From: Armatimonadota bacterium
GTDB lineage: Bacteria > Armatimonadota > Fimbriimonadia > Fimbriimonadales > ATM1
Direction of reading: 5' to 3'
Length of the DNA stretch: 64,000 nt
Assembly: GCA_003577165.1 (NCBI GenBank)
Contig: QEUM01000004.1
Location: forward strand, 124,001 to 188,000
Shown here: positions 53,761 to 54,590 of the stretch, one piece after another
Layout: the number at the start of each line of letters is the position of its first letter
Position numbering within the stretch: position 1 is the stretch's first letter
Notes under the pieces: model-generated
Told to the model about the DNA's origin: nothing
What the model saw: the letters and a program-made list of their open reading frames with translations, nothing else
Databases searched by the model: none
Translations under genes and position numbers: made by a program

Positions 53761-53873
53761 GTTAGCCAGAGCTGCAGGCTCAATCACCGGGTAAAGGCCT
53801 TCCGCCTCCGGCCCGATAATCACGAAGGTAATGGGCAGGGCGGAGCCACGTCCGCGCCCAGGGAGGAAAAAAA

Positions 53874-54530
53874 TTGGCTAACAAATTCGCGTTTCCCAAG
53901 TCGGAAGCAGGATTCAACAAGTGGTTCACGAGTTTTCATCGAACTTTCACCACTCATTCGAAGAAGCACAAGTTCAGCGCAAGCCAGATGAAGGCGTACA
54001 AGAGCGCCTGGAACAACTGGAACAAGTGGTACACGGCGTGGCAGAAGGCCCATGCTGCGGAGCGCAAAGCGTGGAAGCACGCGATGGAGAGCAGGTCTCA
54101 ATTCGAGTCGTTCTTCCGCAAGTTCTTCGCGACAGCCGGTAAGAGCGCTTGGAACAGCGGCCAGTTCGCCAAGTGGGGCATTCCAGCCCACAAGAGCAAC
54201 GGCACTTCGAAGAAGCGAACCTCTTCTCCGAACACCAACACCGCGACCCCGTGGATCAAGACCGAGTGGTCTCGCGGCAAGGTATTCGTCTGGGTCGGCT
54301 ACGGTCGGACCTCGAAGTGGCCCACCTGGGCGACGGGCGCGACCGTTCAGTTCCGCACTCCGGGCGGACGGTGGAAGAACCTCGCTAGCGGCAAGACGTG
54401 GCCGTTCACGCACGTCGTCGGCGCTTGGAAAGGCGGCCCGATCGAGTACCGCGCGGCGTTCACCTACGCTCGCGGCAAGACCGGCCCCTGGAGCAAGCCC
54501 TTCGCTTCCTCTTGGAAGAAGGCGGCTTAG
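53874..54530 (+). CDS. Trp/Lys-rich basic protein with fibronectin-like C-terminus
   Basis: 218 residues from TTG 53874, with a strong GGGAGG site and a terminator after it. By eye it has 18 Trp, about 30 Lys, no Asp, no Cys and a single Leu. The N-terminal ~90 residues (FNKWFTSFHRTFTTHSKKHK, YTAWQKAHAAERKAWKHAME) resemble the helical N-terminus of a widespread family that usually has Ala where this has Trp and Lys. The C-terminal ~95 (WIKTEWSRGKVFVWVGYGRT, YRAAFTYARGKTGPWSKPFA) resembles a fibronectin type III-like domain. No signal peptide. Function unknown; a nucleic-acid, lipid or polysaccharide binder is conceivable. Confidence 0.8.
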   Translation: MANKFAFPKSEAGFNKWFTSFHRTFTTHSKKHKFSASQMKAYKSAWNNWNKWYTAWQKAHAAERKAWKHAMESRSQFESFFRKFFATAGKSAWNSGQFAKWGIPAHKSNGTSKKRTSSPNTNTATPWIKTEWSRGKVFVWVGYGRTSKWPTWATGATVQFRTPGGRWKNLASGKTWPFTHVVGAWKGGPIEYRAAFTYARGKTGPWSKPFASSWKKAA

Positions 54531-54552
54531 CGCCGACCTGTAAGCAGGTCTA

Positions 54553-54590
54553 CGGGCCCCGAAGGCGATTAGCCTCGGGGCCCGTTCGCT
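54553..54590 (+). terminator. Rho-independent terminator after the Trp/Lys-rich gene
   Basis: CGGGCCCCGA (54553-54562) pairs with TCGGGGCCCG (54575-54584), with AGGC/GCC extending the stem toward the loop. A GTTCGCTTTGTTT tract follows. Confidence 0.85.

Follow-up and report, generated by a model that had tools for sequence, protein, structure and literature searches.

In this study, we propose that a small and extremely basic protein, encoded in a 64,000-nucleotide stretch of DNA from an Armatimonadota bacterium (hereafter the window), is a putative abundant, non-specific nucleoid DNA-binding protein that acts in the manner of histone H1. We assign this reading a probability of roughly 55%. 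It is supported by the positive charge of the protein, its predicted fold, the single copy of its gene, the conserved start codon, a ribosomal type of codon usage, the H1-like linker of its orthologues and the missing HU. According to this model, an aromatic helical hairpin would join molecules into dimers or larger assemblies. DNA would be coated and neutralised by the basic surfaces of both domains in the family of the window protein (f1) or by an H1-like tail in its sister family (f2), while a fibronectin-like domain would give a second contact by which DNA is bridged or condensed.

Reading frame, composition and expression signals

The open reading frame encodes 218 amino acids of highly unusual composition. 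The earlier note had counted 18 Trp, about 30 Lys, no Asp and a single Leu, which is borne out except that the number of Lys is slightly lower (W 18, F 18, K 28, R 11, E 6, D 0, L 1); the Lys richness itself stands. The sole Leu is residue 170, and the computed pI and net charge are 11.1 and approximately +33. When ranked against the 55 non-overlapping open reading frames of the window, the protein comes out top in Trp (8.3% versus a mean of 1.5%) and in Lys (12.8% versus a mean of 3.4%), and lowest in Asp and Leu.

The signals around the gene are consistent with efficient expression (Table 1). A GGGAGG ribosome site precedes AAAAAAATTG, as the earlier note had seen. Downstream of the stop codon the segment 54531–54605 folds into a strong hairpin (-42.6 kcal/mol, z -4.7), yet its U-tract is poor and a strict terminator scan lists no terminator 3' of the gene. 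The codon adaptation index of 0.672 lies within the range of ribosomal genes of the same genome (0.54–0.77) and ranks sixth among 50 open reading frames of the window. Judged from codon usage and these signals, the gene is probably well expressed. It is present in one copy only in its own genome and stands alone between an upstream gene that we take, from its translation, to be IMP-dehydrogenase-like and a downstream gene that is presumably, again from its translation, homocysteine methyltransferase/methylenetetrahydrofolate-reductase-like, with no evident link to either. The leader contains GTTAGCCA at 53761–53768, complementary to the start region TTGGCTAAC at 53874–53882, which makes sequestration of the start codon conceivable; since this pairing is not kept in the orthologues, we do not claim it.

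Table 1. Features of the gene and its product, with positions in the window.
Feature	Position	Strand	Basis
Ribosome-binding site around GGGAGG, 7 nt 5' of TTG	53860..53867 (approximate span)	+	Sequence; similar sites 5' of orthologue TTGs
Gene of basic Trp/Phe/Lys-rich 218-aa protein, TTG start, TAG stop	53874..54530	+	Frame, composition, full-length homologues
N-terminal helical hairpin, residues 11-28 and 36-90	53904..54143	+	AlphaFold2; heptad and moment analysis
Short disordered basic linker, residues 106-125	54189..54248	+	pLDDT <50 at 116-121; alignment; charge by domain
Fibronectin-III-like beta-sandwich, residues 127-212	54252..54509	+	AlphaFold2; Foldseek
C-terminal basic tail, ends KKAA	54510..54527	+	Alignment of homologues
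GC-rich hairpin 3' of stop, probable intrinsic terminator, weak U-tract	54551..54585 (approximate span)	+	Fold z -4.7

Predicted fold and the basic clade

The plan of Ala-rich N-terminal helices followed by a fibronectin-like end, which had been read from the letters, proves correct by homology and by predicted fold. AlphaFold2 models the protein as a helical hairpin and a beta-sandwich with a mean pLDDT of 90, whereas the low pTM of 0.54 leaves the relative placement of the two domains unfixed. The same plan is predicted for an acidic relative. In Foldseek comparisons with the PDB, the best matches of the C-terminal domain are mostly fibronectin-III (FnIII) domains (best E 3e-4), and the acidic relative yields 31 matches at E <= 0.001. 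By sequence, the Pfam models give no match with the window protein even at E 10, and against PDB sequences there is weak similarity to FN3con only. Weak PDB sequence matches to colicin E7 (E 0.38) and to Inclusion membrane protein A (E 0.09) were taken as chance, and those of TIGR03425 to one family member (E 0.008) and of the HIND motif to another as compositional.

The long helix carries a stripe of aromatic residues at heptad positions a and d (W46, W49, Y53, W56, W67, F77, F81 and F84). Nine of its 13 hydrophobic residues occupy these positions (permutation p 0.003), and its Lys and Arg residues point approximately 146 degrees away from the stripe, mostly on the opposite face. Together, stripe and opposite charge suggest, on the predicted model, that the hairpin self-associates through the aromatic residues and exposes a basic outer face. 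F14, F21, F25 and W49 are invariant in the alignment of 14 basic proteins described below. The linker between both domains lies where the f2 orthologues have their long H1-like tail.

Full-length homologues occur in several other genera of the same taxonomic family (29–43% identity, E down to 2e-49), and a profile search finds relatives in 36 of the 113 genomes of the order and a few more elsewhere in the phylum. A spurious frame or compositional accident, the outcome that the earlier note had named as refuting, would fit the odd composition and the lack of any match of the window protein in Pfam (even at E 10), NCBIfam and PHROGs. Its probability is nevertheless negligible, because the whole reading frame, including start, stop and fold, is conserved in other genera; by its sequence the frame is a real gene. 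Both the full-length homology and the two-domain fold place the protein in a helical hairpin plus FnIII family of Armatimonadota, and the profile of the acidic family finds it at E 7.8e-21. A search of a genome collection with the window protein alone gave no match, while the f2 sub-alignment retrieved four named relatives (Fimbriimonadaceae bacterium Bin_61_3, Armatimonadota bacterium JPNG_metabat.53, Armatimonadetes bacterium SZAS-3 and a MAG labelled Chthonomonadaceae). A phage origin was rejected, as tblastn found no match among 50,697 phage records.

The basic form is restricted to 14 of the 113 genomes of the order (Fimbriimonadales-like Armatimonadota), with one protein per genome and the window's genome included. 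In the tree a single branch, supported at 100/98, separates the 14 proteins from all others. Its model makes no correction for their unusual composition, and the majority of the basic rows fail the composition test; the clade therefore rests also on the start codon, the linker and the one-per-genome distribution. Its members are rich in Trp and Phe and poor in Leu, Asp and Glu. Thirteen of the 14 genes start with TTG (12 of 13 besides that of the window), followed by an Ala codon or, in one case, Gly, whereas nearly all non-basic relatives start with ATG. Most C-termini read KAA, KKAA, RRAA or KAAA. The earliest branch (G001) is intermediate, with an ATG start, a charge of +22 and the C-terminus AAA; one f1 member (G002) is without the FnIII domain but still has the basic helices and ends in RRAA. 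No shared neighbourhood was found between f1 and f2 genomes; the neighbours of the gene in four f2 genomes include two genes of approximately 430 and 506 amino acids.

The non-basic relatives, of approximately 215 amino acids and with the same predicted fold, have an aliphatic core, are without the basic linker and are often present in multiple copies, with up to 13 matches per genome (G041, G044). Many of them (L036–L081) have the C-terminal residues -LAA or -VAA, reminiscent of ssrA-type ends. Where the start is safe, full-length relatives have charges of about -13 to +11 and are thus not strictly acidic; L081 (+18) and L035 (+10) have long, uncertain N-termini. The basic proteins, in contrast, range from +22 to +75 in all 14 cases. 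Likewise, their N-terminal domains contain 4–14 aliphatic and 19–31 aromatic residues, compared to 17–30 and 5–11, respectively, in the relatives. Read from these sequences, the basic clade has made two linked changes: it has become strongly positive and has exchanged aliphatic for aromatic residues.

The location of the charge differs between both families. In f1 it resides in the domains, the window protein having +15 in its N-domain, +14 in its C-domain and +4 in its linker. The f2 domains are less charged (+2 to +8 in the N-domain, +9 to +13 in the C-domain), and their linker has grown into a Lys/Thr/Ala tail of 65–185 residues with a net charge of +15 to +56, reading for example KKTTAKKTATKKTAAKKTT or KKTTAKKTATKK.... 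Three of the 14 proteins match the Pfam family HC2 'Histone H1-like nucleoprotein' (PF07382; best E 3e-9), a largely compositional match that the window protein, with its linker of 18–20 residues, does not share. Since the location moves while the sign stays, and since G002 keeps its basic part, the comparison suggests that polyanion binding is the selected function of the clade. Of the selection for binding proposed in the earlier note, selection on charge stands as far as it can be judged at the sequence level, because all 14 orthologues are strongly basic, unlike the other family members.

HU and the rival functions

HU/IHF (PF00216) was detected in three of the 113 genomes of the order, of which only one is convincing; it was undetectable in the other 110, and none was found in the genome of the window. 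This search does detect HU in numerous other families of the phylum. YbaB, another small DNA-binding family, is found in all 14 genomes with the basic protein, so that small DNA-binding proteins could be found in those genomes. The window protein itself has no match to PF00216. Most HU-less genomes of the order are without the basic protein, which is therefore not a universal replacement of HU. Some of the HU-less genomes without it carry unrelated H1-like open reading frames rich in Lys and Ala. Other H1-like proteins rich in Lys, Ala, Thr and Arg occur in HU-less genomes of the order (L154 in G006, L153 in G007, L144 in G037); L153 combines a globular N-terminal part with a long H1-like tail, and its genome encodes the basic FnIII protein as well.

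From the nucleic acids, lipids, polymers and structural roles that had been listed as possible targets, nucleic acid is favoured, because the orthologues carry H1- or Hc2-like tails. Several observations speak against a nucleoid role: the HC2 match excludes the window's own protein, most HU-less relatives manage without the basic form, no known DNA-binding fold is present, FnIII domains usually bind protein and the gene neighbourhood has no link to DNA metabolism. Moreover, the charge would also fit RNA, ribosome or polyphosphate binding. A highly expressed protein that assists translation or acts as an RNA chaperone, and whose aromatic residues stack on bases, would explain the pI, the pairing of Trp and Phe with Lys and Arg and the ribosomal-like codon usage. 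We consider it unlikely, as the long KKTTAKK linkers of the orthologues resemble H1/Hc2 and not ribosomal tails, the neighbourhood shows no link to translation genes and most relatives do without a basic protein.

A composition of aromatic residues and Lys is typical of condensate-forming proteins. An organiser of polyphosphate or condensates, which would hold polyphosphate or another polyanion by its basic parts and self-associate through its aromatic helices, would share this composition and has a precedent in AlgP, a protein of net charge +55 with an alpha-helical N-terminus and an H1-like tail that is found on polyphosphate granules (PMC9239181) and spaces them on the nucleoid. AlgP keeps this explanation alive, but no direct link to polyphosphate was found for the window protein and we regard it as rather improbable. 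The FnIII fold, common among extracellular proteins, and the Lys/Trp richness might also point to an extracytoplasmic structural or adhesive protein of a surface polymer or matrix. Inspection by eye revealed no signal peptide or membrane segment in the 14 sequences and no lipobox is evident in any of them, and the gene is single-copy without secretion neighbours, which makes such a location very unlikely. Least plausible among the binding roles is a phasin-like protein of PHA granules with an H1-like tail, as in PhaF. The helical, Ala-containing N-terminus and the basic region would suit it, but PHA synthase (PF07167) is found in none of the 14 carrier genomes, with a positive control in Caulobacter.

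Known H1-like systems and chromosome organisation without HU

The proposed nucleoid role has parallels in several known systems. Like Hc2 (PF07382), the f2 orthologues have a repetitive Lys/Ala/Thr-rich tail of variable length; in chlamydial Hc2, too, the length varies by Lys-rich units (PMC2848022). In f2, however, this tail connects two folded domains, and the long disordered Lys/Ala/Pro/Thr-rich tail of the HC2/histone H1-like class is absent from the window protein. The heparin-binding hemagglutinin HbhA of Mycobacterium tuberculosis, for which sequence-independent DNA binding and nucleoid association are shown (PMC10665949), combines an alpha-helical coiled-coil part with Lys-rich AKKA repeats, akin to the helical part and Lys-rich region of the basic clade. 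It differs in its C-terminal basic tail and in having no fibronectin domain, and no homology to the window protein was detected. AlgP and PhaF of Pseudomonas likewise have their tail at the C-terminus and no fibronectin domain; in them a helical N-terminus is followed by KPAA repeats of H1 type, through which DNA is bound (PMC9239181), and both have granule roles. With HU the likeness is limited to the proposed role as an abundant architectural DNA binder, without sequence similarity.

The family is named in none of the libraries searched, Pfam, NCBIfam and PHROGs among them, and in the open-access literature searched we found no protein of non-basic ancestry in which an aromatic helical hairpin is joined to an FnIII domain by an H1-like or short basic linker. 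Bacterial H1-like proteins as such are already known. Tentatively, and with less confidence than for DNA binding as such, we suggest that this lineage of HU-less bacteria has a chromatin protein of its own: an ordinary acidic hairpin/FnIII protein may, on one occasion, have become an architectural protein that condenses DNA by exchanging acidic for basic and aliphatic for aromatic residues throughout, and may then have gained an H1-like tail between its domains in one family. Intermediates survive, from acidic relatives over the mildly basic, ATG-started G001 to short-linker and finally H1-tailed forms.

This work documents the near absence of HU across an entire bacterial order. Chromosome organisation in HU-less bacteria is little explored, and the basic family is a candidate for a part in it. 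If the proposal is true, the family would show clearly that a nucleoid protein can be made from two domains whose pairing has no known DNA-binding role.
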